From the NCBI RefSeq assembly GCF_015291645.1, contig NZ_CP030055.1:6510001-6574000 (forward strand): a stretch of 64,000 nt of DNA. The letters are read 5' to 3'. Source of the stretch: Bradyrhizobium sp. CCBAU 53340 (GTDB taxonomy: Bacteria; Pseudomonadota; Alphaproteobacteria; Rhizobiales; Xanthobacteraceae). The first letter of the stretch is position 1, and every line of letters begins with the position of its first letter. This document shows, one piece after another, positions 16,518 to 30,720 of this stretch. A program made the position numbers and the translations under genes. The notes under the pieces are model-generated. The model ran no database searches. It worked only from the letters and a program-made list of their open reading frames with translations, and was not told the origin of the DNA.

Positions 16518-17312
16518 TTAGCCATCCGACGGCAGCCCCTGCGCGAGATCGCGAAAGCGCAGCGGCGCCAGCGACGATGCGCGCTGCCACCACTCCGCGA
16601 CACGATCGTCGAGCGCCGTCACGCCGCGGCCTTGGCCGGGAAAGATACGGATCTGCTGTACAGCTTCCGCCTCGAACCCCTTGCCCCTTCGCGTGACCTT
16701 GAGGGCGGCACCTTCGCGGTCCCGCTGCGTCAGCGGCACCAACAGGCGACCGCGCGGACGGAGCGACTGCAGCCAGAGCGGATGTGGATGTGAGAAGCCG
16801 GCATGCACGATGATCACATCGGCCGGCTCGCCGATGTCCCGGCACCCGTCGCCGTGGACGACCTCGACATTCCGATAGGCGCGGAGATAGGTCGCAGCGC
16901 GCTTTGCCAGCCTCGCCTCGCATTCGATGGCTTGCACCCTGCCGTTCGGACCCACGATCTCCGACAGGATCGCCGAGAAGTAGCCGAGCCCACAACCGAT
17001 CTGGACCACGCGATGCTTTTCCCTGACATCGAGCAGGTCGATGAAATGCGCCCACAGGCTCGGCAATCCGGTGTCGAGCTTGCGACGCGCGTCGATGGCG
17101 ACCAGTACGTTGTCGTAGAGATGAACGGGATCCGCATCGGGCGTCAGCCGATAGCTGCGCGCCGCCTCGGTCTTGACGCGCCAGGGCCCCCGCGCCAAAA
17201 AATTTTCGCGCGGCACCGTCGCAAGGGCTGCAAGCAGACGCTTTGAGGCGATCCGCTCGCGCCTTGCAATCAGCTCGACGTATCGCGCCCGCGCGGCGGA
17301 CAGATCGCTCAT
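16518..17312 (-). CDS. protein-L-isoaspartate O-methyltransferase-like protein
   Basis: About 264 residues from ATG 17312, in the SAM methyltransferase fold. Motif I is VVQIGCGLGYFSAILSEIVG near residues 103-122, followed by VQAIECEARLAKRAATYLRA. The PCMT-family block DVIIVHAGFSHPHPLWLQSL, then RPRGRLLVPL, lies around 170-200. The N-terminal PRENFLARGPW resembles the PCMT substrate-recognition segment. PCMTs repair isoaspartyl residues in aged proteins; the divergence here means another carboxyl target is possible. The start codon overlaps the stop of the large cyclase gene by 4 bp, so the two are co-translated. Confidence 0.8.
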   Translation of the reverse strand: MSDLSAARARYVELIARRERIASKRLLAALATVPRENFLARGPWRVKTEAARSYRLTPDADPVHLYDNVLVAIDARRKLDTGLPSLWAHFIDLLDVREKHRVVQIGCGLGYFSAILSEIVGPNGRVQAIECEARLAKRAATYLRAYRNVEVVHGDGCRDIGEPADVIIVHAGFSHPHPLWLQSLRPRGRLLVPLTQRDREGAALKVTRRGKGFEAEAVQQIRIFPGQGRGVTALDDRVAEWWQRASSLAPLRFRDLAQGLPSDG

Positions 17313-20300
17313 CTCACCGGATCGGCGTGTGGACGAGCGGGCGTGTCGCCGCCGAGCTCGTGCACGAGCTGCATGGCCAGCTTCAGGTCCGGCGTCAAAA
17401 AACCCTCGTTGAACTTGCCGACGATCGGCAGCAGCAGAAGGCTCGCATGTTCGCGCTTGCCGGCCTCGTGTGACAGCCGCGCGAGGCTGATAGCGGTCCT
17501 GAGCTCCCACGACAGCGCACCCTGCTTGCGCGCCGTCTCCAGCGACAGGCCGAACAGCTCCTCGGCCTCCTGCACCGACGCCGGACTACCGTCCGACATG
17601 GTGATCTCGCCTTGCAGCCGATAGACCTCCGCGAGGTAGGAGTGATCGCCGGTGCGCCTTGCGGTCGCAAGCGCACCATCCAGCGCGCGCAAGGCCGCAT
17701 CGCGCATGCCGACCTTGGCGTAGGCCTCCGCGAGCAGGCAGCGGAACCAGCAGCCGGCGAGCCAGGAATCCATCGCCTCATATTCGTCGAGGCCGAGGCG
17801 CATCTGGCTGATGCCCTCGTCGACCTCGCCGAGCTGCGCCAGCGCCCAGCCGCGCAAGATCGCGGCCTGCTGCCTCCAGTGCAGGAAATTGTGCTCGGTG
17901 GCGATGATCATGGCACGATTGGCGTAATCGCGCGTGCCCTCGATGTCGCGCAAATGCTGGCAGAGATAGGCGCCGAACACCAATGCGAAGGCGAGCGAGA
18001 ACGGATGGCGGATCTTCTCCGCGAGCGCAATCGCCTGCTCGCTGTGCTGCCGCGCCGCGTCGGGCTGGCCGAGGAACCAGAGCAGATAGCCGAGATAGGA
18101 CAGCGAGACCACGCCGGGATCGGTGCCGTGCCGCACCATCAGATCTGAATGCAGATCGGGGCTATAGAGATCGATGCAGCGATGCAGATGATGCTGCGCG
18201 GCGGCGAAGCGCCCGCGATAGAGCATCGTCATCGCGATCGAGCGATGCGCCTCGATCAAATAGCCGGTCTGCTGCGCCGTGTCCTCGTTCAGCCGCTCGC
18301 GCTTGGCAAACTTCAACAGCTCGACGCTGAGATCGTGCGCACGGGTGAGATCGGCGCGGATGAAATGGCAGACCCAGAGCCCGCGGGTGGCGGCAAAGGC
18401 CTTTTCATCGTCGTCGAGCTGCTGGCCGAGCTCGAGGGCCCGGATGTAGTTCTCCTCGACCTCCTGCACGGCGTAGCCCTTGGCGGCGATCAGCGCGTTG
18501 CCGAGCGCGATGCGCAGCTCCAGCTCCATCTCGTCGGCGCCCTGCATGCGCGCATTGGCCTGCACGACGCTCAAGCCGCGATGCAGATGGCCGATCGCCT
18601 CCAGGTTGGCGCCGCTCCTCGCCGCCTGCTTGCCGGCCTTGAGCCAGAAGCTCGCAGCGCCCTCGCTCTGGCCGGATTCGGTCAGATGATGGGCCAGCAG
18701 CTCGGGCTCGCGCTCGGTCTTCTCCGGATACATCTCGGCAAGGACCTGGGCGATGCTGGCATGCAGCTTGCGCCGCTCGCTGTGCAACAGGCTCGCATGG
18801 GCCGCGTTCTGGATCATCACGTGCTTGAACGAATAGAGCGCGTCGGGCGGATGACCACGGCGCATGATCAGTCCGGCATCCTCCAGATGCGTCAGCGCCG
18901 CCTCGATCTGCTCCGCCGGCGTGTTGGCGACCGCGTTCAGGGTCTCGTAGGAGAATTCGCGGCCGATGGTGGCGCCGATCTGCGCGATCCGCTTGAACGG
19001 TCCCATCCGGTCGAGACGCGCCATCAGCGAGTCCGTCAGCGTCGCCGGGATCGCGAGCTGCCGCCACGGGCCCGACAGCACGTAGCGCCCGTGCCGCTCG
19101 GTCAGGAGGTTGGATTCGAGAACCGTCTTGGTCAGCTCCTCCAGGAACAGCGGCACGCCGTCGGTCTTGACGATGATCTCCTCGACGACCTCCTTGGGAA
19201 GCTCGCGCCCCGCAACGCGCTCGACCAGCGTCGTGCGCAACGGCTTGCTGAGCCGGTTCAGCACCAGCGTGGTGATATGCGAATGCGCGTTCCAGCTCGG
19301 CTGGAATTCGGAGCGCGCGGTGATGATGGCCAGGATCGGGCGGTTCTGCACCCGGTCGACCAGCAAATCGACCACCTCGCGGGAGGTCGGATCGATCCAG
19401 TGCAGATCCTCGAAGGCCATTACCAGCGGCATCTCGCGCGCGAGGCCGAGGAAGTGGTTGACCAGCGCCGCGACGGTCGCGTCCTTCTGCTGCTGCGGTG
19501 ACAGGTCGAGCGGCGGATAGCGCTCCCCGGTCGGAATCGACAGCAGCGCAGCGAACAGCGGCGCCACCTGCTCGATATCGCCCTGCGCAGCGGTGATTGC
19601 TCTCTCCAGGCTCGCCAGCGACAAGGCGGACGCATCTTCGCGGTCGAGACCGAGCGAGAATTTGAGCTGTTCGACGAACGGATAGAATGCGGTCGAGGTG
19701 TAATAAGGCGAGCACTGGAACGAGACCTGTCCGTGCCGGTCGCCCGCGATCCGCTCGAAGATCTCCTGAATGATGCGCGACTTGCCGATGCCGGGCTCGC
19801 CGAACTTGACGACGACCTGACCGTCGCCCTCCTTGACCTGCTGCCAGCGCGCCATCAGCAGCGCGATTTCCTCCTCGCGATTGACAAGCGGGGTCAGCCG
19901 CGTGCCCATGGCGGCGGCAAAGCGGGTCTCCGCGCGCGTGGCGCGCACGACGTGCCAGGCCTGGGCTTTTTCCGAGATGCCCTTCAGCGCGTGGACGCCG
20001 AGATTGCGGTAATCGAACTTGCCCTTCAGCAGCGATTGCGTCGAGGCGGAGATCACCACGCCGTTGGGCGGCGCCAGCGCCTGCAGACGCGCGGCGAGAT
20101 TGACCGTCTCGCCGACGGCGGAGTCGCGCTCTTCGGTGCCCTGGCCGACGAGGTCGCCAACCACGACGAGGCCGGTCGCAATCCCGATGCGAACGGCGGG
20201 CGCGTGGCTGAGCGCGCCGCGCGGCTCGATCGCGCGCGCCGTCGAGAGCACCCGCACGATCTCGAGCCCGGCGCGCACCGCGCGTTCGGCGTCGTCCTCA

Positions 20301-20767
20301 TGTGCGGTCGGGTAGCCGAAATAGACCAGGATGCCGTCACCGACGAAGCGGGCGGCAAAGCCTTCGTAATGCTTGACCACGCGCACGCAGGTCTCGCGGA
20401 AGCTCGCGATCATATCGCGCACGTCTTCCGGGTCGAACTGGGCGGAAAGCGCGGTGGAGTCCACCATGTCGCAGAACATGGTGGTGAGCTGGCGCCGCTC
20501 GGCGCCGACCTCGGTGCGAACAGGCGGACGCGGAGGCGCGGCCGGTGCCTCCGCCGTCTCGGCCTGAAACAGCGCGGCCATCGCTCGCTGGAGCCGCTTG
20601 CGATCGCCGAGCGGCAGTCCGAGCTCGGCAAGGTCGGCCTCGGTCAGGTCTCCCATGACGTCGAGATCGAGGCGGTGCTGCGCGAACAGATCGGTATAGT
20701 GGCCAAGACCGACCCCTTCGAGCCAGCGCTTCAACCCGACTTCCGTCTCCGGCTCATTCTCCAGCAT
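17309..20767 (-). CDS. SAM-domain / class III nucleotide cyclase / AAA-type ATPase / TPR signalling protein
   Basis: About 1152 residues. Order: a SAM-like domain (residues 5-65, VGLKRWLEGVGLGHYTDLFA), then a class III adenylate/guanylate cyclase domain (about 90-270) with metal-binding Asp in TMFCDMVDST and RFVGDGILVYFG. A STAND-like ATPase comes next, with Walker A GEPGIGKS near 310 and Walker B VMAFEDLHWID. A long tetratricopeptide region fills the remainder to about 1150. Proteins of this build act as large intracellular sensors; ligand and output are unknown. ATG 20767 is preferred over TTG 20815. It is divergent from the NRPS gene, with 133 bp between starts, and co-translated with the PCMT-like gene. 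Confidence 0.88.
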   Translation of the reverse strand: MLENEPETEVGLKRWLEGVGLGHYTDLFAQHRLDLDVMGDLTEADLAELGLPLGDRKRLQRAMAALFQAETAEAPAAPPRPPVRTEVGAERRQLTTMFCDMVDSTALSAQFDPEDVRDMIASFRETCVRVVKHYEGFAARFVGDGILVYFGYPTAHEDDAERAVRAGLEIVRVLSTARAIEPRGALSHAPAVRIGIATGLVVVGDLVGQGTEERDSAVGETVNLAARLQALAPPNGVVISASTQSLLKGKFDYRNLGVHALKGISEKAQAWHVVRATRAETRFAAAMGTRLTPLVNREEEIALLMARWQQVKEGDGQVVVKFGEPGIGKSRIIQEIFERIAGDRHGQVSFQCSPYYTSTAFYPFVEQLKFSLGLDREDASALSLASLERAITAAQGDIEQVAPLFAALLSIPTGERYPPLDLSPQQQKDATVAALVNHFLGLAREMPLVMAFEDLHWIDPTSREVVDLLVDRVQNRPILAIITARSEFQPSWNAHSHITTLVLNRLSKPLRTTLVERVAGRELPKEVVEEIIVKTDGVPLFLEELTKTVLESNLLTERHGRYVLSGPWRQLAIPATLTDSLMARLDRMGPFKRIAQIGATIGREFSYETLNAVANTPAEQIEAALTHLEDAGLIMRRGHPPDALYSFKHVMIQNAAHASLLHSERRKLHASIAQVLAEMYPEKTEREPELLAHHLTESGQSEGAASFWLKAGKQAARSGANLEAIGHLHRGLSVVQANARMQGADEMELELRIALGNALIAAKGYAVQEVEENYIRALELGQQLDDDEKAFAATRGLWVCHFIRADLTRAHDLSVELLKFAKRERLNEDTAQQTGYLIEAHRSIAMTMLYRGRFAAAQHHLHRCIDLYSPDLHSDLMVRHGTDPGVVSLSYLGYLLWFLGQPDAARQHSEQAIALAEKIRHPFSLAFALVFGAYLCQHLRDIEGTRDYANRAMIIATEHNFLHWRQQAAILRGWALAQLGEVDEGISQMRLGLDEYEAMDSWLAGCWFRCLLAEAYAKVGMRDAALRALDGALATARRTGDHSYLAEVYRLQGEITMSDGSPASVQEAEELFGLSLETARKQGALSWELRTAISLARLSHEAGKREHASLLLLPIVGKFNEGFLTPDLKLAMQLVHELGGDTPARPHADPVR

Positions 20768-20900
20768 GGTGATCCGCCCAACATTCCCTACGTCGAAGGG
20801 CTTAAGGTCCCTCAACCACAGATTTTGGGACCAAACTTCACCTCAGACTGGACGCGTTCCCTAACTCTTGGGAAGAATAGCCCAATCGGATCAAAAGGGA

Positions 20901-23900
20901 ATGGCATTGTCGGGAATTGCATCCGGGGCGAGAGAGGGATCGGCCGACACGGGCGCCGAAGCCAATACGATCGGCGGCCTCCTCGCCTTGCACGCGCGTT
21001 CGACACCGGCAGCGCCCGCCCTGCTCGCCCCCGGCCGGCCGCCCCTGACTTATGGCGCTCTCGGCGCCAGAATCGAGCATCTCGTCCGTACCTTGCGCGG
21101 GCTCGGAATTGCCCCCGCCGACCGCATGGCTGTTGCGCTGCCGCGCGGGGCCGACAGTGCGCTCGCCCTGATCGCGGTTGCATCGACCTGCGCCTGCGTT
21201 CCCGTCAACCCTGATCTGACGGCGGATGAGCTGCAACGCTATTTCAGCGAGATGAAGCTGTCGGCGCTCGTAACGCGGGCCGACATGAACTCGCCGAGCC
21301 GGGACGTCGCCAGAGCGCTCGATATCGCGGTCATCGACTTCGTGCCCGGTCCGGAGGCGGATCTCGGCGGCTGCGAGTTCGTCGGCCCGACGGTCGGCCC
21401 GCCCGGCGCAGGCGGAGCTGCGCGTGCCGAGGACGATGCATTCATCCTGCTGACATCAGGCACGGCGGCGCGGCCGAAAATGGTGCCCCTGACGCACCGC
21501 AATGTATGCCTTTCCGCGCAAAATGCCGGCCGCGTGCTCTCGCTCACATCGCACGATCGCCTGCTCAACGTTCTGCCACTGTTTCACGCCCACGGCCTGA
21601 TCTCCGGGTTGCTGACGGCGCTTGCGGCGGGCTCCAGCGTGATCGTGACCAGCGGTTTTGACGCGCCATCCTTCTTCGGCTGGATGCGGGATCTGCAACC
21701 GACCTGGTACACGGCGGTGCCGACCATTCATCGTGCGCTGCTGACGGCTGCGGAAGCCAACCCGCAAGCCGCCCGATCATCATCGCTGCGCGTGATCCGC
21801 TCCGCCTCATCCTCGCTCGCACCCGCGATCCTCAACGGACTGGAGGCGGCCTTCGGCGTTCCCGTTCTCGAGACCTACGGCATGACGGAAGCGGCCTCGC
21901 AGATCGCAGCCAATCCGTTCGAGTTGCGCAAGATCGGCTCGGTCGGCCGCGCCGCCGGTCCCGACATCGCGATCATGGACGAAACGGGCCGCGAGCTTGC
22001 AAGCGGCACGCGTGGCGAGATCATGCTGCGCGGACCGAATATGAGCCGCGGCTATTATAATGACGAGGCGGCGACGCAGGCCGCATTCCACAACGGCTGG
22101 TTCCGCACCGGCGATCTCGGCTATCTCGACGCCGACGGCTATCTCTTCATTGTCGGCCGCATCAAGGATGTCATCAACCGCGGTGGCCAGAAGGTATCGC
22201 CGCTGGAGGTGGAAGAGGTGCTGCTGGCCCACCCGGCGGTGCTGGAAGCCGGGGTCTTCGCCGTTCCGCACGCAAAGCTCGGCGAGAACGTCGCCGCCGT
22301 CGTGGTGCTGCGTTCCGATTCCGGGGCCAGCTCCGACCAGCTGCGCCAATTCGCGCGCAAGCGTCTCGCCGCCTACAAGGTGCCGAGCCTGATCCGCAGC
22401 GTGGCGGCGCTGCCGAAGGGTGCCAGCGGCAAGGTCAAGCGCAATGCGCTCGCCGAGCTGATTTCGGCGGAACAGGCCGACGACGAGACGCAACTACCGC
22501 GCAACGCGCTGGAGTCCCAGCTTGCGGAGATCTGGGCCAATCTGCTCGATCTTCCGCAAGTCGGCCTCGATCAGGACGTCTTCGCGCTCGGCGCGGACTC
22601 GCTTGCGGTCACGCAGATGCGCTCGCGCCTGCGCGAGCGGTTCAACGCGGAGTTCTCGTTCGAAGACATCTTTGATTGTGCCACCGTCGGCGCTCTTGCC
22701 GCTCGGCTCGAGGCCACGGCGCATCGGGACGCGACGCTGCCGGCATGGCGCCAGGCTGCCCCTGACGGAGACGCGCCGCTGTCGTTCCAGCAGCAGCGGA
22801 TGTATGTGCTCTCGCGGCTCGATCCGACGCGCTACAATTATAATGTGGTCGAGGTCGCGCTGCTGAAGGGCCATGTCGATCTGGCAGCGCTCCGGGCAGG
22901 CCTTGCCGCGGTCTGCGAGCGCCACGAGGCGCTGCGCTCGGTCTTTCTCGAGCGCGATGGCGAGCCCGTGCAGCGCGTGCTTCGGACGCTGCCGCAGCTC
23001 AAGCGGATCAAGCTCAAGCCCTGCCCCTCACACCGGCGGGCTGCGGTCGTCAGGCGCGAGGCGCGGAAGCTTGCCCAATATGCGTTCGATCTCGCCCACG
23101 AGCCGCCGCTGAAGGTCACGCTGCTCTCGTTCGGCAGATCCAGCCATGCGCTGGTCGTCAACGTCCATCACCTCGTTACAGATGGCTGGTCGCAGCGGTT
23201 GTTCTGGGAGGCGCTCGCCGCCGGATATGCGGCAGCACGCAAGGAAAGCACGGTGGCGCTGCCCTCGCCCGGCTTCCAATATCGCGACTTTGCACGCTGG
23301 CAGCAGAGCTGGGCGCAGACTGCTGCGGCAAAGGAGCAGCTCGACTACTGGCGGGCGCAGCTCGACGGCGTCTCCACGCTGCCACTGCGGACCGACCGGC
23401 CAAGGCCTGAGGTCTGGAGCGGTCACGGCGCGCGTCATTATTTCGAGTTCTCCAAGGACCTTTCGGCCGACATCCGCGCAATGAGCCAGGACCAGGGCGT
23501 GACGCCCTTCATGTCACTGCTCGCAGCCTTCCAGTGTCTGCTGTTCCGTCATACCGGGCATGAGGATGTCGCGACGGGATCGCTGATCGCAAACCGCAAC
23601 CAGCTCGAAAGCGAGCGCCTGATCGGGCTGTTTGCCAATACGCTGATCCTGCGCAACGATTTCGGCGGCGATCCGACCTTCGGCGAAATGCTGCGCCGAG
23701 TGCGCCAGGTCACACTGGATGCCTATCGCAACCAGGACCTTCCGATCGAGGAAGTTCTGCGCGCGCTGCAGATCGCGCGAAGGACGGATGGCAATCCGCT
23801 GTTCCGGATCATGTTCATTCTCCAGAACGCCTCGATCGAGGCCGCGCGCTTCCCTGGCCTGTCGACGCGCCGGCTGGAGGTCGATCCAGAAGTCGCGCGC

Positions 23901-26900
23901 TTCGACATCACGCTCGAGCTGGTCGAGGCCGAGGGGCGCTTCACCGGCTTCTTCGAATACGCCACCGATCTGTTCGACGAAGGCACGATCGAGGGCATGG
24001 CGGATCAGTTCAAGACCCTGCTCAAGGCGGTCATCGCCAATCCCGAGCAGCGCATCTCGCGCCTGCCGCTGCTCACCGCCGCCGAGCGCCGGCAGCTGCC
24101 GATGAAAGGCCGTCCTGCCAATTTCACCACACGTGGCAATCTCTGTGAGCGTTTCGGGCAGCAGGCGAAAAAGACACCGAATGCCATTGCGATATCCGAC
24201 GGACTGATGTCCCTGAGCTATCGCGAGCTGGCGCGCCGGAGCCAGGCGATCGCGCGCTGGCTCGCCCGCGAAGGCGTCGGCGCGGAAACGGTGGTCGCAC
24301 TGCTCGCGGATCGCGGGCCCAACCTGCTCGCGGCGATGATCGCGGTGCAGCGCGCCGGCGCGGCGTTCCTGAACCTCGATCCCGACCAGCCGCCGGCGCG
24401 ACTCGCGACCATCCTCGGATCGAGTTGCGCAACCGTGTTGCTGACGGGGCGCGCGCAATCCGCCATGGTCGAGGCGCTGCTCGAACCACTGGTCGCGCGC
24501 ATCGAGGTGGCCGACATCGAGGATGCCATTGCGCTCGCAGCGACACCACCGGCCCGTGCGGCGCGGCGCGCAAGCTCCAGCCTTGCCTACCTCATCTATA
24601 CGTCCGGCTCTTCCGGTGCGCCGAAGGGCGTCATGATCGAGCAGCGGGGGCTATCGAACCATCTGGCCTCGCTCATTTCCGAGCTGGGCCTCACACCCAA
24701 GGACGTGATCGCGCAGACCGCGCCGCAGAGCTTTGTCATATCGGTCTGGCAGTTCCTTGCCGGTCCCATGGTCGGTGCACGCGTCCATGTCTGTGCCAGC
24801 CCTGTCGTCCAGGACCCGATGCTGCTGGCACGGGAGATCGAACGCGAGGGCATCACGGTGCTCGAGATCGTGCCGTCGCTGCTGCGCGTCATCGTCGAAC
24901 GTCTCGACGAAGCACCGATGCGGCGCGCCTTTGCCCGGCTGCGGCTCCTGATCTCGACCGGCGAGCCGCTGCCGGTCGAGCTCAGCCGCGCCTGGTTCGA
25001 CCGCAGCCCGAAGGTACCGTTGATCAATGCCTATGGTGCTTCGGAATGTTCCGATGACGTCTCGCTGCACCGGCTGACCCGGGCACCGGATGTGACGACG
25101 ACCAACGTCTCCGTCGGCGCGCCTCTGCCGAATACCCAGCTTTACGTGCTCGATCCGAACCTTGCGCTGCAGCCGATTGGCGTGGTCGGCGAGCTCTGCA
25201 TTGGCGGCGACGGCGTCGGCCGCGGCTATGTCAACGATCCCGCGCAGAGCCGGCAGCGCTTCATTCCGGATCCGTTCCGGCGCCGCGAAGGCGCACGGCT
25301 CTACCGCACCGGCGACCATGCCCGCCGCCGCGCCGACGGGACGATCGAATGCCTCGGCCGCGCCGACCTTCAGGTCAAGGTTCGCGGCTATCGCATCGAG
25401 CTCAAGGAGATCGAAGCTGCGCTTGCCAACCACGAGAGCGTCCGCGCCGGCATCGTCGAGCCGCGCCGCGACGCCAATGGCGACGTCAGGCTGATCGCCC
25501 ATGTCGTCGCGAAGTCCGGCAGCCGGACCAGCGCCAGCGAGCTTCGCGACTTCCTCAAGAGCCGGCTGCCTGTGCACGCGATCCCGTCCGCGTTCCTGTT
25601 CCTGGATCAGGTGCCGCTGAATGCCCACGGCAAGCTCGATCGCTCCGCCCTGGTCCCGCCCGCGCAACAGGAGGCCGGAAGTGTCGAGGCGGCCGTGCCG
25701 GCGCGGCATTTCACCGAAAAGGTCCTGTCCGACATTTGGATCGATCTGCTGAAGGTCGAGAGCCTCGGTGTCACCGACAATTTCTTCGACCTTGGCGGCC
25801 ATTCGCTGCTGGCGGGCCAGGCGATGGCGCGTGTGGCCCGCGCGCTCGGAGTATCGTTGCCGATCAAGACCATCTTCGAAGCGCCGACGATCGAAGAACT
25901 GGCCAGGCTGGTCGATGCGGCGGTGGCCACCAAGCTGCAAAAGCCGGCCTCCAGCGTCCCACGCCTCATGGAAAGCGGACCTCCCACGCTGTCGATCGCG
26001 CAGGACCAGATGCTGCGGATCGAGCAGAACCTGCCCGATCTGCCGCTGTTCAATCTGCCCTTCGCCTTTCATCTCGAAGGCCCGATGGATCCGCGTCTGC
26101 TGGCGCAGGCGATCGACGACATCGTGCGCCGGCACGAATCGTTACAGACGGCGTTCGGCCGGAACGGCGAGGAACCGGTCAGCGACGTCGTCGCGCCAGC
26201 CACGTTCGGGCCGATACTGACCGTCGAGACCATCGGCGACGGCCGGCCCCACAACAACAAGCGGCGCAAGGCGCTCGAACTCAGGAAGATCGAACTCCTG
26301 ATCGCGCAGGAGACCTGTACCCCTATTGGTACGACGCGGGCGCCGCTGCTGCGGGCACGGCTGCTGCGGCGTCACGCCGAGGATCACATCCTGCTGCTGA
26401 CGCTGCATCATGCCATCGCCGATGGCTGGTCGATCGGCGTGCTGTTCGAGGAATTGTCCAGCCGCTACGCCGCACTGGCAGGTCATCCATCGCCACCTTT
26501 GCCAAAAATACCGCTCGCGTTCTCCGACGTCGCGCGCTGGCAGCGCTGGTGGTGCGGCACGGAGGCGGCCCGCCGGCAGGCGGCCGACTGGACCGAGAAT
26601 TTGCGCGGCGCGCTGCCCCTGTTCGACGGAAAAGCACCTCCGGGCGCGCCGACCGGCCATCATCCGCTCAGCCTGGAGCACGACCTGGTCGCCCGACTCG
26701 CGGCCCATGCGCGCCAGCACAACGCCACCCTGTTCATGTGCCTGCTCACCGGCCTGAAGGCGCTTCTGCTGGCGCGGACCGGACATACCGACATCTCGGT
26801 GGCCACCGCCATGGCCAACCGCGCCCAGCCGGATACCGAACAGATCGTGGGGCCGTTCGAGAATACCGTGATCGTCCGCAGCCGAATCACGCCGGATTTG

Positions 26901-27329
26901 TCCTTCACGCAAGGATTGCTGCGGGTGCGCCAAAGCGTGCTCGATGCTCATGCGCGGCAGGAGCTGCCTTTCAACATGCTGGCCGACCATCTGGAACAGG
27001 AGGGCATCGATACGGCTGCCCTGCTTCAGGTCTATTTCACGCTGCAAAATCCGCTGCGCCAGCCGCTCGACCTGCCCAACGTCGCGGTGCGATCGATCGG
27101 GAACGTCGCGCGGGAGGGCCAACCCGTGCTGCCGATCGACCAGACCTGGCTGTCGCTGATGCTGAAGGAGCGGCCGACCGGAATCACCGGTTCATGCAAT
27201 TACAAGGGCGAGTTGCTCGACGGCGGCATGGTCGGCGCCTGGATGCAGGATCTCATCGCGCTGCTTGCGGCGGCTGTCGCCCAGCCGCATACGCCGCTTG
27301 GCCGATTGCTCGATCGCCGCGCGGCATGA
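20901..27329 (+). CDS. non-ribosomal peptide synthetase, A-T-C-A-T-C, no thioesterase
   Basis: A 2142-residue enzyme. A1 (about 20-530) is acyl-CoA-synthetase-like (PLFHAHGL, ETYGMTEAASQ, GKVKR) with an altered P-loop TSGTAARPKM. T1 has the phosphopantetheine Ser567 (GADSL). C1 has HHLVTDG at 756-762. A2 has TSGSSGAPKG near 1234, NAYGASE near 1376 and GKLDR near 1578. T2 has Ser1635 (LGGHSL), and C2 has HHAIADG at 1836-1842, after which the protein ends. Aligned by eye to GrsA, the A2 pocket is V-I-W-E-I-T-A-D-D-K, lacking the Asp that binds the alpha-amine. So A1 may load a carboxylic acid, A2 an omega-amino acid, and C2 may release onto a free amine. A TTG at 20868 is an alternative start. 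A phosphopantetheinyl transferase gene lies downstream. Confidence 0.93.
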   Translation: MALSGIASGAREGSADTGAEANTIGGLLALHARSTPAAPALLAPGRPPLTYGALGARIEHLVRTLRGLGIAPADRMAVALPRGADSALALIAVASTCACVPVNPDLTADELQRYFSEMKLSALVTRADMNSPSRDVARALDIAVIDFVPGPEADLGGCEFVGPTVGPPGAGGAARAEDDAFILLTSGTAARPKMVPLTHRNVCLSAQNAGRVLSLTSHDRLLNVLPLFHAHGLISGLLTALAAGSSVIVTSGFDAPSFFGWMRDLQPTWYTAVPTIHRALLTAAEANPQAARSSSLRVIRSASSSLAPAILNGLEAAFGVPVLETYGMTEAASQIAANPFELRKIGSVGRAAGPDIAIMDETGRELASGTRGEIMLRGPNMSRGYYNDEAATQAAFHNGWFRTGDLGYLDADGYLFIVGRIKDVINRGGQKVSPLEVEEVLLAHPAVLEAGVFAVPHAKLGENVAAVVVLRSDSGASSDQLRQFARKRLAAYKVPSLIRSVAALPKGASGKVKRNALAELISAEQADDETQLPRNALESQLAEIWANLLDLPQVGLDQDVFALGADSLAVTQMRSRLRERFNAEFSFEDIFDCATVGALAARLEATAHRDATLPAWRQAAPDGDAPLSFQQQRMYVLSRLDPTRYNYNVVEVALLKGHVDLAALRAGLAAVCERHEALRSVFLERDGEPVQRVLRTLPQLKRIKLKPCPSHRRAAVVRREARKLAQYAFDLAHEPPLKVTLLSFGRSSHALVVNVHHLVTDGWSQRLFWEALAAGYAAARKESTVALPSPGFQYRDFARWQQSWAQTAAAKEQLDYWRAQLDGVSTLPLRTDRPRPEVWSGHGARHYFEFSKDLSADIRAMSQDQGVTPFMSLLAAFQCLLFRHTGHEDVATGSLIANRNQLESERLIGLFANTLILRNDFGGDPTFGEMLRRVRQVTLDAYRNQDLPIEEVLRALQIARRTDGNPLFRIMFILQNASIEAARFPGLSTRRLEVDPEVARFDITLELVEAEGRFTGFFEYATDLFDEGTIEGMADQFKTLLKAVIANPEQRISRLPLLTAAERRQLPMKGRPANFTTRGNLCERFGQQAKKTPNAIAISDGLMSLSYRELARRSQAIARWLAREGVGAETVVALLADRGPNLLAAMIAVQRAGAAFLNLDPDQPPARLATILGSSCATVLLTGRAQSAMVEALLEPLVARIEVADIEDAIALAATPPARAARRASSSLAYLIYTSGSSGAPKGVMIEQRGLSNHLASLISELGLTPKDVIAQTAPQSFVISVWQFLAGPMVGARVHVCASPVVQDPMLLAREIEREGITVLEIVPSLLRVIVERLDEAPMRRAFARLRLLISTGEPLPVELSRAWFDRSPKVPLINAYGASECSDDVSLHRLTRAPDVTTTNVSVGAPLPNTQLYVLDPNLALQPIGVVGELCIGGDGVGRGYVNDPAQSRQRFIPDPFRRREGARLYRTGDHARRRADGTIECLGRADLQVKVRGYRIELKEIEAALANHESVRAGIVEPRRDANGDVRLIAHVVAKSGSRTSASELRDFLKSRLPVHAIPSAFLFLDQVPLNAHGKLDRSALVPPAQQEAGSVEAAVPARHFTEKVLSDIWIDLLKVESLGVTDNFFDLGGHSLLAGQAMARVARALGVSLPIKTIFEAPTIEELARLVDAAVATKLQKPASSVPRLMESGPPTLSIAQDQMLRIEQNLPDLPLFNLPFAFHLEGPMDPRLLAQAIDDIVRRHESLQTAFGRNGEEPVSDVVAPATFGPILTVETIGDGRPHNNKRRKALELRKIELLIAQETCTPIGTTRAPLLRARLLRRHAEDHILLLTLHHAIADGWSIGVLFEELSSRYAALAGHPSPPLPKIPLAFSDVARWQRWWCGTEAARRQAADWTENLRGALPLFDGKAPPGAPTGHHPLSLEHDLVARLAAHARQHNATLFMCLLTGLKALLLARTGHTDISVATAMANRAQPDTEQIVGPFENTVIVRSRITPDLSFTQGLLRVRQSVLDAHARQELPFNMLADHLEQEGIDTAALLQVYFTLQNPLRQPLDLPNVAVRSIGNVAREGQPVLPIDQTWLSLMLKERPTGITGSCNYKGELLDGGMVGAWMQDLIALLAAAVAQPHTPLGRLLDRRAA

Positions 27330-27467
27330 CCGTCGTTGGCCCGCTCCGAGCAGATGTTCACTCGCCAGAGCTGTGAATGAGCAAGTTGCATCTTGATTAT
27401 TTGCCGCCAGCGAGCAAGATATTCTCGTGTTTTGATTTGGACTGATATTTTCAACCGGGGGAGTGTT

Positions 27468-27632
27468 ATGGGTTTCATCAAATTTACCAAGGGTACCTCG
27501 CTGAGCGACAAGGACCGCAAGGCCCTGCAGAAGCTGCTCACCGACGAGAAGAAGAAGCTCCAGTCCGCACTAAAGGAAGTCGATGCCAGCCTTTCGATGC
27601 TGGGCGGCAAGAAGGCCAAGAAGAAAAAGTAA
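27468..27632 (+). CDS. 54-residue lysine-rich small protein in the NRPS cluster
   Basis: ATG at 27468 follows a strong GGGGGAG ribosome-binding site, so translation is likely. The protein begins MGFIKFTKGTSLSDKDRKAL. It has a helical middle rich in Lys, Glu and Leu with heptad spacing (about residues 13-44) and ends LGGKKAKKKK. There is no Cys and no signal peptide. It is not MbtH: the MbtH tryptophans and the NPFD start are missing. I do not recognise the family. Being between the NRPS and its phosphopantetheinyl transferase suggests a role in that pathway, for example as a protein partner or nucleic-acid-binding protein. Function is unknown. Confidence 0.75.
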   Translation: MGFIKFTKGTSLSDKDRKALQKLLTDEKKKLQSALKEVDASLSMLGGKKAKKKK

Positions 27633-27861
27633 GATTCGTCGGTCGGGACGCCGTACGAATTCTTGGATTTCATTTTCAAAATCTGGCCGCTCGCCTGTCG
27701 AGTTGGGGTCTCGCACAAGCTTGCGCCTGTAAACCGGCCAGCGATCGACAAGAATTTGCCCGGGTGGACCGCTAGAAGCCGTCCGCTCAGTTGTTTCCTG
27801 CTCGGTTGATTCTTTCGGTCAGACCGGATTTGGCCTCCACCTGACGCTATGGGCCCATTTT

Positions 27862-28593
27862 ATGGCAGACGACGAAATTGAACTGTTTGTCGGACTGATC
27901 GAGAGCATCGATTCGCCGGGCGCGGTCGATGCGTGCCGGCGGCTGCTTTCGGTCGAGGAACGGATACGTGCCGACCGCTTCATGTTCGAGCGGCATCAGC
28001 GACAATATATCTTCGCGCATGCGATGTTGCGCATGGCGCTCTCGCATGCCGCCCCCAATGTCGAGCCGACCGACTGGTCGTTTTCGACCGGCCGCTACGG
28101 GCGGCCCTTTATCGCATCGCCCAAGAGCTCGACAGCATTGCATTTCAGCCTATCCCACGCCGACGGGTGCGTTGCTTGCGTCGTATCGAAGCATGAGGCG
28201 GTCGGCGTCGATGTCGAGACCGTGTCGCGGCGCGTCGCACCGCTGTCGACCGCGCTCCGTTTCTTTGCGCCGGAAGAGGTCGAAACGCTGCGCAATCTGC
28301 CGGAGCCTGCCGCAATCGAGCGCTTCTTCGACTATTGGACGTTGAAGGAGGCCTATCTGAAGGCCAGAGGGTTTGGGCTCAATCTGCCGCTCGACGCATT
28401 CGCCATGCAGATCTCGCGGGAGGCGATCGGGATCAGGTTCAAGCCTGACATCGCCGACGATCCTGCCGGCTGGCGCTTCTCACTGTGCTCGCCGTCGCCC
28501 TCGCATCGCCTCGCGATCGCGGACGGCTCGCGCGCCGCTGGCGGCCTGCGCATCAGCCGCAATGCCTGGCCGCTCCAGGAAGCGGCAGAATGA
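27862..28593 (+). CDS. Sfp-type 4'-phosphopantetheinyl transferase
   Basis: A 243-residue enzyme that moves phosphopantetheine from CoA to carrier-protein serines. Family motifs are present: GRPFIASPKSSTALHFSLSH around residues 80-99, the metal-binding GVDVETVSRR near 114-123, and FDYWTLKEAYLKARGFGL near 155-172 with the catalytic W-x-L-KE-A-x-x-K. The length fits the Sfp/Gsp class used for secondary metabolism. It probably activates Ser567 and Ser1635 of the NRPS 530 bp upstream. The last bases overlap the monooxygenase start (ATGA), so these two genes are co-translated. The 229-bp gap before it shows no other gene. Confidence 0.92.
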   Translation: MADDEIELFVGLIESIDSPGAVDACRRLLSVEERIRADRFMFERHQRQYIFAHAMLRMALSHAAPNVEPTDWSFSTGRYGRPFIASPKSSTALHFSLSHADGCVACVVSKHEAVGVDVETVSRRVAPLSTALRFFAPEEVETLRNLPEPAAIERFFDYWTLKEAYLKARGFGLNLPLDAFAMQISREAIGIRFKPDIADDPAGWRFSLCSPSPSHRLAIADGSRAAGGLRISRNAWPLQEAAE

Positions 28594-29570
28594 GCCCGGC
28601 GCGGTTGCGCGTCTTTCCGGCAATCTCGCGCAACCGCGATCCCAAGACATATATTGGCGAACTGATGCGGGTGGCGGAGTTCGCCGACCGCAACGGCTTC
28701 GAAGGCATCTTGCTGTTCGAAGGCAACGACGTGTTCGTCGAGCCCTGGGCCATGGCCCAGCACATCATCGCCGCGACCACACACTCTTCGCCGCTGATCG
28801 CCGTCAATCCGGTCTACATGCACCCGTTCACGGCTGCGAAATTCGTCTCGTCCTTCGCGCAGCTCCACGGCCGCAGGGTCTATCTCAACATGATCACGGG
28901 GACTGCGATCAGCGACTTGCAGGGGCTGGGGGACGAGCAGTCGCATGCGGACCGCTATGTCCGGCTCAGTGAGTTCGTCGCCCTGACGCGCCAGTTGCTC
29001 GCAAGCCCACGGCCGGTGAATTTCGACGGCCGGTTCTACCGGGCCAGCAATCTGCAACTCCGACCGCGGCTGCCGGTCGAGTTGATGCCGGAATTTCTCG
29101 TCGCGGGGCAATCGGAAGCGGCACAGCGCGTCGCGGCTGAGACCGGCTGCATCAAGATGCAGATGCTGCCGCCCGATCTCGACCGCGGCCTCACCGCATC
29201 AGGCATGAATTTTGGCATCTTCGCGCGCGAGAGCGGCGAGGAGGCTCGACGGGCGGCGATGGCGCGCTTCCGCGACGATCCCGATGATCGCGAGTTGCTC
29301 GCGCTCACTGTGGAAAACTCGGATTCCGTCTGGAAGCGGAAGCTCTATGACGGCCAGAGCGGCGAGCTTCACGACAATGGCTACTGGCTCCTGCCGTTCC
29401 TCACTTTCCAGGCCGACTGCCCCTATCTCGTCGGCAGCTATGCCGAGATCGGCGCGAAGCTCAGGGATTTCGCGGCGAAGGGCCTGACCACTGTCATGCT
29501 CGACATGGTCGCGGACGAGGCCGAGATGCAGCACGTCTGCAAGGCGCTCAGGGCGAGCGGGATGTTTTGA
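28590..29570 (+). CDS. LLM-class flavin-dependent oxidoreductase (luciferase/SsuD-like)
   Basis: About 326 residues with the TIM-barrel pattern of bacterial luciferase-like monooxygenases: MRVAEFADRNGFEGILLFEG near residues 25-44, VYLNMITGTAISDLQGLGDE near 95-114, HADRYVRLSEFVALTRQLLA near 118-137 and FLVAGQSEAAQRVAAETG near 170-187. Such enzymes use reduced FMN and oxygen to hydroxylate or cleave substrates, including sulfonates and NRPS-tethered intermediates. The overlap with the phosphopantetheinyl transferase start/stop (ATGA) ties it to the NRPS pathway as a tailoring enzyme. No flavin reductase gene is nearby, so FMNH2 must come from elsewhere. Confidence 0.88.
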   Translation: MSPARLRVFPAISRNRDPKTYIGELMRVAEFADRNGFEGILLFEGNDVFVEPWAMAQHIIAATTHSSPLIAVNPVYMHPFTAAKFVSSFAQLHGRRVYLNMITGTAISDLQGLGDEQSHADRYVRLSEFVALTRQLLASPRPVNFDGRFYRASNLQLRPRLPVELMPEFLVAGQSEAAQRVAAETGCIKMQMLPPDLDRGLTASGMNFGIFARESGEEARRAAMARFRDDPDDRELLALTVENSDSVWKRKLYDGQSGELHDNGYWLLPFLTFQADCPYLVGSYAEIGAKLRDFAAKGLTTVMLDMVADEAEMQHVCKALRASGMF

Positions 29571-29694: not shown

Positions 29695-30720
29695 TCACCG
29701 CGCCTCTTCGAAACCCGCCAGCACCGAGGTCAGGTTCGCGCCGAGGATGTCGGAGAGATAGCCGCCCTCCTGCACGAACACGGTCGGCAGGCCCATCTTC
29801 GCAATGGCCTGGCCGATGCGGCGGAAGCCGGGCGTGGTGACGGCAAGGCCCTTCAGCGGGTCGTGCTCGGAGGCATCGAGGCCGAGCGCAATCACGAGCG
29901 CGCCCGGCGCAAAGGATTCGATCGCCTTGCGCGCGACATCCATCGCCTTGATATAGCCGTCATCGCCCGTGCCGATCGGCAAGGGAATGTTGAGATTGGC
30001 GCCGAGGCCAGGGCCCTCGCCGCGCTCATGGGCATAGCCCCACACATAGGGATAATAGGCGATCGGATCGGCGTGAATCGAGACCGTGTAGACGTCAGGC
30101 CTCGCGTAGAAAATACCCTGCGTGCCATTGCCATGGTGAACGTCGACATCGAGGATCACGACGCGCTCGTGCTTCTGCCGCAGATGCGCGGCGGCGATCG
30201 CGCTGTTGTTAAGGAAGCAGAAGCCGCCGGCCATGTCGCGATAGGCGTGATGGCCTGGCGGGCGGCAGAGCGCGTAGGTCGCGTCTTCGCCGTCCATCAC
30301 CATCTGCGCCGCCGTGACTGCAACATCCGTCGCGGCACACGCCGCGGCCCAGGTGCCCGGCCCGATCGGTGCTGCGGTATCGGCGGTGTGCCAGCCGAGC
30401 TTACCGACGATGTGCGTCGGATAGGTCGCGGCATGTCGCACGGGATGGATGTTGCCGATCATCTCCGGACCGGAATCGCCGAGCGCCGTCCAGGCATCCC
30501 AGGCTTCGCTCAGGAACGACAGATATTCCGGGCTGTGAATGCGCGCCCGCGGACCCTGGCCGAATGTGGTCGGCTCGACCAGTTGGTGCTTGCCGTCCTT
30601 CAGCCCCTTGAGCAGACGGTCGGCGCGCTCAGGCTGCTCGGTGGTACGCTTGACAACGCCGCGGACCAGGAAGAATTGCGGATCGTGGCTGCGGTGCAGT
30701 TCGGTATGGACGGCTTTCAC
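29695..30720 (-). CDS. histone deacetylase-family acetylpolyamine amidohydrolase-like protein
   Basis: A 341-residue zinc hydrolase of the arginase/deacetylase fold. Catalytic His pair and zinc ligands are in RPPGHHAYRDMAGGFCFLNN (around 155-174), VVILDVDVHHGNGTQG near 190-205 and ALGLDASEHDP near 275-285; VQEGGY follows near the end. The pattern, with Pro-Gly-His-His-Ala-Tyr and a short length, fits bacterial acetylpolyamine amidohydrolases, which free polyamines from N-acetyl forms. Function by family, not proven. It is convergent with the NRPS cluster, which may matter if the NRPS product is released onto a polyamine. The upstream gene is unrelated. Confidence 0.88.
   Translation of the reverse strand: MKAVHTELHRSHDPQFFLVRGVVKRTTEQPERADRLLKGLKDGKHQLVEPTTFGQGPRARIHSPEYLSFLSEAWDAWTALGDSGPEMIGNIHPVRHAATYPTHIVGKLGWHTADTAAPIGPGTWAAACAATDVAVTAAQMVMDGEDATYALCRPPGHHAYRDMAGGFCFLNNSAIAAAHLRQKHERVVILDVDVHHGNGTQGIFYARPDVYTVSIHADPIAYYPYVWGYAHERGEGPGLGANLNIPLPIGTGDDGYIKAMDVARKAIESFAPGALVIALGLDASEHDPLKGLAVTTPGFRRIGQAIAKMGLPTVFVQEGGYLSDILGANLTSVLAGFEEAR

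Follow-up and report, generated by a model that had tools for sequence, protein, structure and literature searches.

Release of an assembly-line product by a terminal condensation (C) domain is known from the rhabdopeptide/xenortide synthetases, in which the stand-alone terminal domain Kj12C passes the chain to an amine, mostly phenylethylamine, without a thioesterase (TE), as described in the excerpts of PMC6195595. The locus analysed here, which lies in a window of 64,000 nucleotides from Bradyrhizobium sp. CCBAU 53340 (contig NZ_CP030055.1), encodes a nonribosomal peptide synthetase (NRPS) whose last domain, C2, likewise ends the line without a TE, and release to an amine by C2 is what we propose by analogy. 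Unlike the stand-alone Kj12C, C2 is fused to the line and tied to a small basic protein, here called SB, and its acceptor is putative.

Acylated ribosomal peptides, for example the goadvionins and lipolanthines, receive their acyl group from acyltransferases other than C domains. As in that class, the gene of a small ribosomal partner stands next to that of the enzyme here as well, and if SB itself were the acceptor, the system would share with goadvionins and lipolanthines an assembly-line acyl group on a ribosomal product. To our knowledge, no C domain has been described as the transferring enzyme for such a product.

In the portions of the open-licence literature available to us, we found neither a description of this cluster or of a terminal C domain paired with a small protein and a cyclase (the NRPS gene blr2108 standing outside the comparison) nor a characterised cluster of the same architecture; the cluster is likewise not described in the available sections of PMC6515984, PMC8632152, PMC3899966, PMC6195595, PMC12815270, PMC10708946 and PMC1894796. 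What is already known is terminal-C release (excerpts of PMC6195595); what is new, to the extent that those portions cover the field, is that the terminal C is consistently coupled to a cyclase and a small protein.

The synthetase and its terminal condensation domain

A sequence-only reading of this DNA had described a synthetase of A-T-C-A-T-C order with an acyl-CoA-ligase-like A1, intact carrier serines and HHxxxDG motifs in both modules and no release domain, followed by a small basic protein, a 4'-phosphopantetheinyl transferase (PPTase) and an overlapping LLM enzyme. This outline was borne out (Table 1). Pfam places two AMP-binding, two PP-binding and two Condensation matches on the synthetase ORF in the claimed order, with A, T and C domains over the family cut-offs; the carrier motifs LGADSL (563) and LGGHSL (1631) and the condensation motifs HHLVTDG (756) and HHAIADG (1836) are intact; neither a TE nor a reductase domain is detected by Pfam in the protein; the best solved matches of A1 are oxalate-CoA ligases; and the downstream order stands, with Pfam identifying the PPTase and the LLM enzyme, whose genes share 4 bases. 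The only C domains of the genome are those of the synthetase, since a genome-wide search with PF00668 gave two matches, both inside this ORF. With its intact HHxxxDG motif, its position as last domain and no TE or reductase, C2 fits the architecture of the Kj12C type.

Table 1. Features of the cluster, with positions in the window.
Feature	Position	Strand	Basis or remark
NRPS A1-T1-C1-A2-T2-C2, 2142 aa	20901..27329	+	ORF 20868-27329; likely start 20901; Pfam
A1, acyl-CoA-ligase-like, about aa 26-526	20976..22478	+	nearest solved relatives are oxalate-CoA ligases
T1, aa 540-603, LGADSL	22518..22709	+	Pfam, motif
C1, aa 624-1066, HHLVTDG	22770..24098	+	Pfam, motif
A2, about aa 1087-1519, code VIWEITADDK	24159..25457	+	Pfam, pocket reading
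T2, about aa 1600-1665	25698..25895	+	placed from LGGHSL motif
C2, terminal condensation domain, aa 1691-2142, HHAIADG	25971..27326	+	profile match, C tree, motif
SB, 54 aa, small basic, Met-Gly start	27468..27632	+	leucines heptad-like spaced, Lys-rich tail
4'-phosphopantetheinyl transferase	27862..28593	+	PF01648
LLM flavin monooxygenase	28590..29570	+	PF00296
SAM-class III cyclase-AAA-TPR protein, divergent from synthetase, upstream	17309..20815	-	Pfam; conserved neighbour

In a tree limited to C domains of the Bradyrhizobium family, which carries a long-branch warning and was rooted for drawing only, C2 and the terminal C domains of one-module A-T-C relatives form a single clade (100/100) apart from C1. 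On this point, a terminal C with a clade of its own, the tree supports the sequence-only reading, and because the clade stands apart from C1, we take C2 to be a dedicated terminal domain; there is good support for a dedicated role of C2 in release. Among solved structures C2 matches 6p1j best (166 bits), and against plasmids its best identity is 35.7% among the 25 of 457 records listed.

The one-module A-T-C proteins (open frames of 1087-1136 residues) occur in 11 genomes of a genus sample of 265, and in the five compared the terminal C domain is 44-45% identical to C2 versus 31-33% to C1. They keep the carrier serine, a strict carrier pattern having missed the carrier in six of 120 database relatives. 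In place of HHxxxDG they have HDxxxDG, at 11 of 11 loci and in all 120 database relatives listed, whereas HH is present in both C domains of all 120 two-module relatives listed, among them the synthetase of the window.

A different ending is found at two loci, L067 and L069, of the 75 related loci introduced below. There the orthologous protein stops after T2 (Pfam for L069) and is followed by the LLM gene and then by a C-A-T-TE protein; SB and the cyclase were not found at either, and these are the only loci of the set in which SB is missing and in which this C-A-T-TE protein replaces the terminal C domain. A TE gene conserved beside the NRPS in relatives, which the sequence-only reading had named as evidence against itself, is therefore seen in two of 75 loci only, and there as part of a third-module protein standing in for the terminal C. 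When placed against GrsA in an alignment and read manually (the automatic reading had one gap), the third A domain of L069 gives DILQLGVIWK, close to DILQLGLIWK, which we take to be a glycine code. C1 of L069 branches from within the lineages bearing the terminal C (starred forks 98/99 and 96/98), which suggests that the TE form arose later, as a replacement.

The small protein SB and its linkage to the terminal domain

Searches with SB gave no Pfam family above its cut-off and none from NCBIfam. That it is a genuine gene follows from its median dN of 0.049 against a median dS of 0.318 (first 45 codons; 69 comparisons with other loci).

The set of related loci comes from a scan of one genome per species, which gave 441 pattern matches, 429 of which encode a relative; from these the 80 best were retained, making up 75 loci. 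All but one are labelled Bradyrhizobium (74 of 75). The exception, L003, is titled Frankia sp. RB7, yet the whole stretch is Bradyrhizobium at 84-97% protein identity, and the record is probably mislabelled or contaminated.

Scored with a profile partly built from these same 75 loci, SB is kept in 73 of them. The divergent cyclase is kept in 71 (absent from L052 and L072, both cut at a contig end, and from L067 and L069), the PPTase lies beside the synthetase gene in 70 (not in L042, L043, L067, L069 and L073) and the LLM gene is kept in 64, such that the steadiest partners of the synthetase are SB and the cyclase, ahead of the PPTase and LLM. Of the four-gene block that had been expected to be conserved across relatives, the part concerning SB stood, whereas the PPTase is not adjacent in five loci and LLM is absent from 11; LLM is dispensable to the cassette and was dropped as a core gene. 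Between the synthetase stop and SB lie 90-178 bases in 72 of 73 loci, the outlier being L066, where the synthetase frame is interrupted.

This linkage extends over the genus. Among the 265 genomes, C2 relatives (E up to 1e-70) occur in 127 genomes with 128 copies and SB (E up to 1e-4) in 131 genomes with 141 matches, and 126 of the 128 C2 copies have an SB no more than 1 kb away. Of the two other copies, the one in G534 is accompanied on the opposite strand, at a distance of about 0.3 kb, by an SB-like frame that scores less well (E 3e-7); the other, in G353, comprises the synthetase and LLM at L177 with no SB there, while SB, the cyclase and a PCMT gene sit elsewhere in that genome, at L176. 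The 15 SB matches away from C2 are eight flavin-monooxygenase paralogues, one copy in G353 and six remnants in five genomes. In a family sample of 296 genomes, 19 copies of C2 relatives (at least 44% identity) were found in 18 genomes and 19 copies of SB (E below 1e-7) in the same 18, at least five of them being built-in matches, as the SBs of the window and of L130-L133 had gone into the profile; weaker SB places number four in three further genomes and one in G042. Outside Bradyrhizobium, SB is present in G119, one genome of another genus in the same family, and a class sample of 385 genomes gave two SB matches, both in Bradyrhizobium.

Where the synthetase is lost, SB tends to be damaged. 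At L171-L175, in five genomes, the synthetase is gone or reduced to short remnants (L172, L173). Each of the five has an SB with a truncation or frameshift and a PPTase that matches over its full length at 86-88%, and LLM is found in none; in L172 a full-length cyclase remains, in L173 it is spread over two frames, and at the remaining three loci no cyclase was found. The five cases of SB decay are not independent, because four of the SBs end at the same point. At L182 the synthetase is broken (frame changes and an internal gap) and SB is intact, and at L183, where the synthetase is spread over several frames, SB still matches with one stop flagged in it.

The second residue of SB varies with the enzyme. 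SB starts Met-Gly at all 73 main-set loci that have it, with the N-terminus altered past Gly2 (MGKRRP) in L074 and L202, and Met-Cys at all 11 A-T-C loci; in more distant two-module genomes the start is Met-Gly in L130, L132 and L195 and Met-Ala in L131, where a Met-Ala SB occurs alongside HH. Among the 120 homologues listed of 259 found, residue 2 is Cys in 62, Gly in 39, Ala in 18 and Val in one, this lone Val row containing an internal Met-Cys start. The pairing of HD with Cys versus HH with Gly is suggestive, yet it may go back to a single evolutionary event. The Lys-rich tail of SB was considered as an acceptor and is less likely; Lys and Arg interchange in it from one SB to another, and L178, of the A-T-C type, lacks it.

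Eight SB paralogues (L164-L170 and L203) adjoin an FAD monooxygenase gene with no synthetase. The monooxygenases share at least 82% identity with the one at L164, the gene being divided between two frames in L166, and Pfam, run on six of the eight, finds Pyr_redox_3 in all six. A cyclase relative is present at seven of these loci, in two pieces in L170, the eighth lying at a contig end, and all eight paralogues start Met-Ala. A flavin monooxygenase, a Met-Ala SB paralogue and a SAM-cyclase-AAA relative thus make up a second cassette.

Neighbouring genes and predicted substrates

The SAM-cyclase-AAA-TPR gene was overlooked in the sequence-only reading and is conserved together with the cluster. 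Its product matches TIGR03903 (TOMM system kinase/cyclase fusion protein) with 544 bits over about 1000 residues, which is below the curated cut-off of 705.75 and leaves it outside the family; full-length SB-linked cyclases score 515-544 bits versus 304 for a single unlinked control. The match is long, differs in that the cyclase has a SAM domain where the kinase part would be, and the name of the model points to a ribosomal-peptide system. At A-T-C loci a cyclase gene was near in seven of the seven examined, its type varying (SAM-AAA or TPR) while SB stays. An antiphage reading was set aside: PADLOC matched only the three cyclases tried (class III cyclase, PycC; one also weakly mad8) and gave no match for the NRPS, SB, PPTase, LLM or the flavin monooxygenase.

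The genome has two PF01648 genes, the PPTase of the cluster among them, as would suit a dedicated PPTase. A histone-deacetylase-fold protein (29695-30720, minus strand) adjoins the cluster and is 89-99% identical where found; present at 66 of 75 loci and missing from the B. elkanii type loci, it was rejected as a part of the cassette. Distant LLM relatives (36-37%) adjoin stand-alone A domains in L098 (7583-12856), together with a methyltransferase and a carbamoyltransferase, and in L099 (1536-12073), together with a formyltransferase and an A-T-acetyltransferase protein.

With regard to substrates, A1 compared over its whole length scores 380 bits with 6qjz, 372 with 5ie0 and 278 with 8aff, the next entry being 3r44 at 204 bits; the first three, all oxalate-CoA ligases, are its best sequence match, and A1 differs from them in being fused to a carrier domain. 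It probably activates a non-amino carboxylic acid, small or dicarboxylate-like. Of 83 distinct relatives, A-T-C proteins included, 73 share the same A1 pocket string and the remainder depart from it at one or two residues. In A domains Asp235 usually holds the alpha-amino group; 77 of 79 distinct sequences have the code of A2 or a near variant of it, all without Asp235, and an ordinary alpha-amino acid may therefore not be what A2 loads as second unit. Several positions are common to A2 and VDWVISLADK, presumably a beta-alanine code, and our guess is that A2 takes a beta- or omega-amino acid. Asp235 is found in two exceptions, the third module of L069 and L132 (G119). The latter is the only two-module A2 with Asp235; it has lost Asp331 (DIWQTIADTK), and this may mark a changed substrate.

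Possible routes of chain release

The order of events that we infer from the domains is as follows. The PPTase would arm T1 and T2, A1 would load a non-amino carboxylic acid onto T1, C1 would couple this acid to whatever A2 has placed on T2, and C2 would transfer the chain from T2 to an amine in a step requiring SB; LLM would oxidise the product in strains retaining it, and the cyclase-ATPase would regulate the cassette. In the form that we favour as a working hypothesis, the N-terminal amine of SB (Gly after Met removal) would enter the acceptor side of C2 and take the chain to give an N-acylated protein, while in a tamer form SB would dock on C2 and assist the reaction of a small amine. Linkage, decay and swap together point to a role of SB in release, and to SB-dependent release by C2, with SB as acceptor or adaptor, we would give an even chance. 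Within it, somewhat less than half goes to SB as the acceptor of the chain, that is, to protein N-acylation. A specific version of it, in which C2 would acylate the SB N-terminus and in which the one-module relatives, having lost the catalytic His, would instead use thiol exchange by the N-terminal Cys followed by an S-to-N shift, is equally tentative. The separate location of synthetase and SB in G353 is in favour of SB-dependent release, as is the glycine-like code of the third A domain in the TE-type locus, whereas the broken synthetase with an intact SB in L182 and the eight monooxygenase-linked paralogues speak against it, the latter being the main evidence against SB acting purely as a C-domain acceptor. 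The Met-Ala start alongside HH in L131 and the altered N-termini of L074 and L202 also count against it.

A free amine is a possible acceptor too, and the sequence-only reading had C2 condense the chain with a diffusible amine in the manner of Kj12C, which would make SB dispensable for catalysis. The intact HHxxxDG of C2 and a synthetase gene that encodes no TE agree with this, as does the Kj12C precedent in rhabdopeptide synthesis (excerpts of PMC6195595), but it leaves the SB linkage unexplained and no amine-forming enzyme was seen among the neighbour genes run through Pfam, even if the cell could supply the amine from another source; we consider this model unlikely. Because the TE-type loci lack the cyclase as well as SB, the true partner could also be the cyclase. 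In a further reading SB belongs to the cyclase, the two forming a signalling or regulatory pair that controls the synthetase, the A-T-C protein and the flavin monooxygenase while C2 releases the chain alone. A cyclase relative indeed accompanies SB at 71 of 75 main-set, 7 of 8 monooxygenase and 7 of 7 examined A-T-C loci, and G353 has both together without the synthetase; against this, the cyclase is full length in L172 and yet SB is truncated after synthetase loss, and among A-T-C loci the cyclase switches type with SB constant, which makes this pairing, to our mind, quite unlikely as the explanation.

C2 might finally be the leftover of a lost third module, with the line stalled or the chain freed by spontaneous hydrolysis or a distant hydrolase, and two relatives do have a third module with a TE after the orthologous A-T-C-A-T protein. 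C2 is, however, 33% identical to the third-module C, which is itself nearer C1 (37%), the tree makes the TE form look derived (the forks given above), and HHxxxDG is retained in both C domains of every one of the 120 relatives listed; identities and tree render this origin very improbable. A thioesterase acting in trans was rejected for want of a strong PF00975 gene in the genome, where five marginal hits were found, four of them just over the 26.4-bit cut-off and the best at 28.2 bits.

Taken together, the C2 type is present in 127 of 265 sampled genomes of Bradyrhizobium, a genus of root-nodule symbionts, and its near one-to-one link with SB provides a concrete handle on product release by a TE-less synthetase. 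Should SB prove to be the acceptor, this would demonstrate the modification of proteins by assembly-line chemistry.
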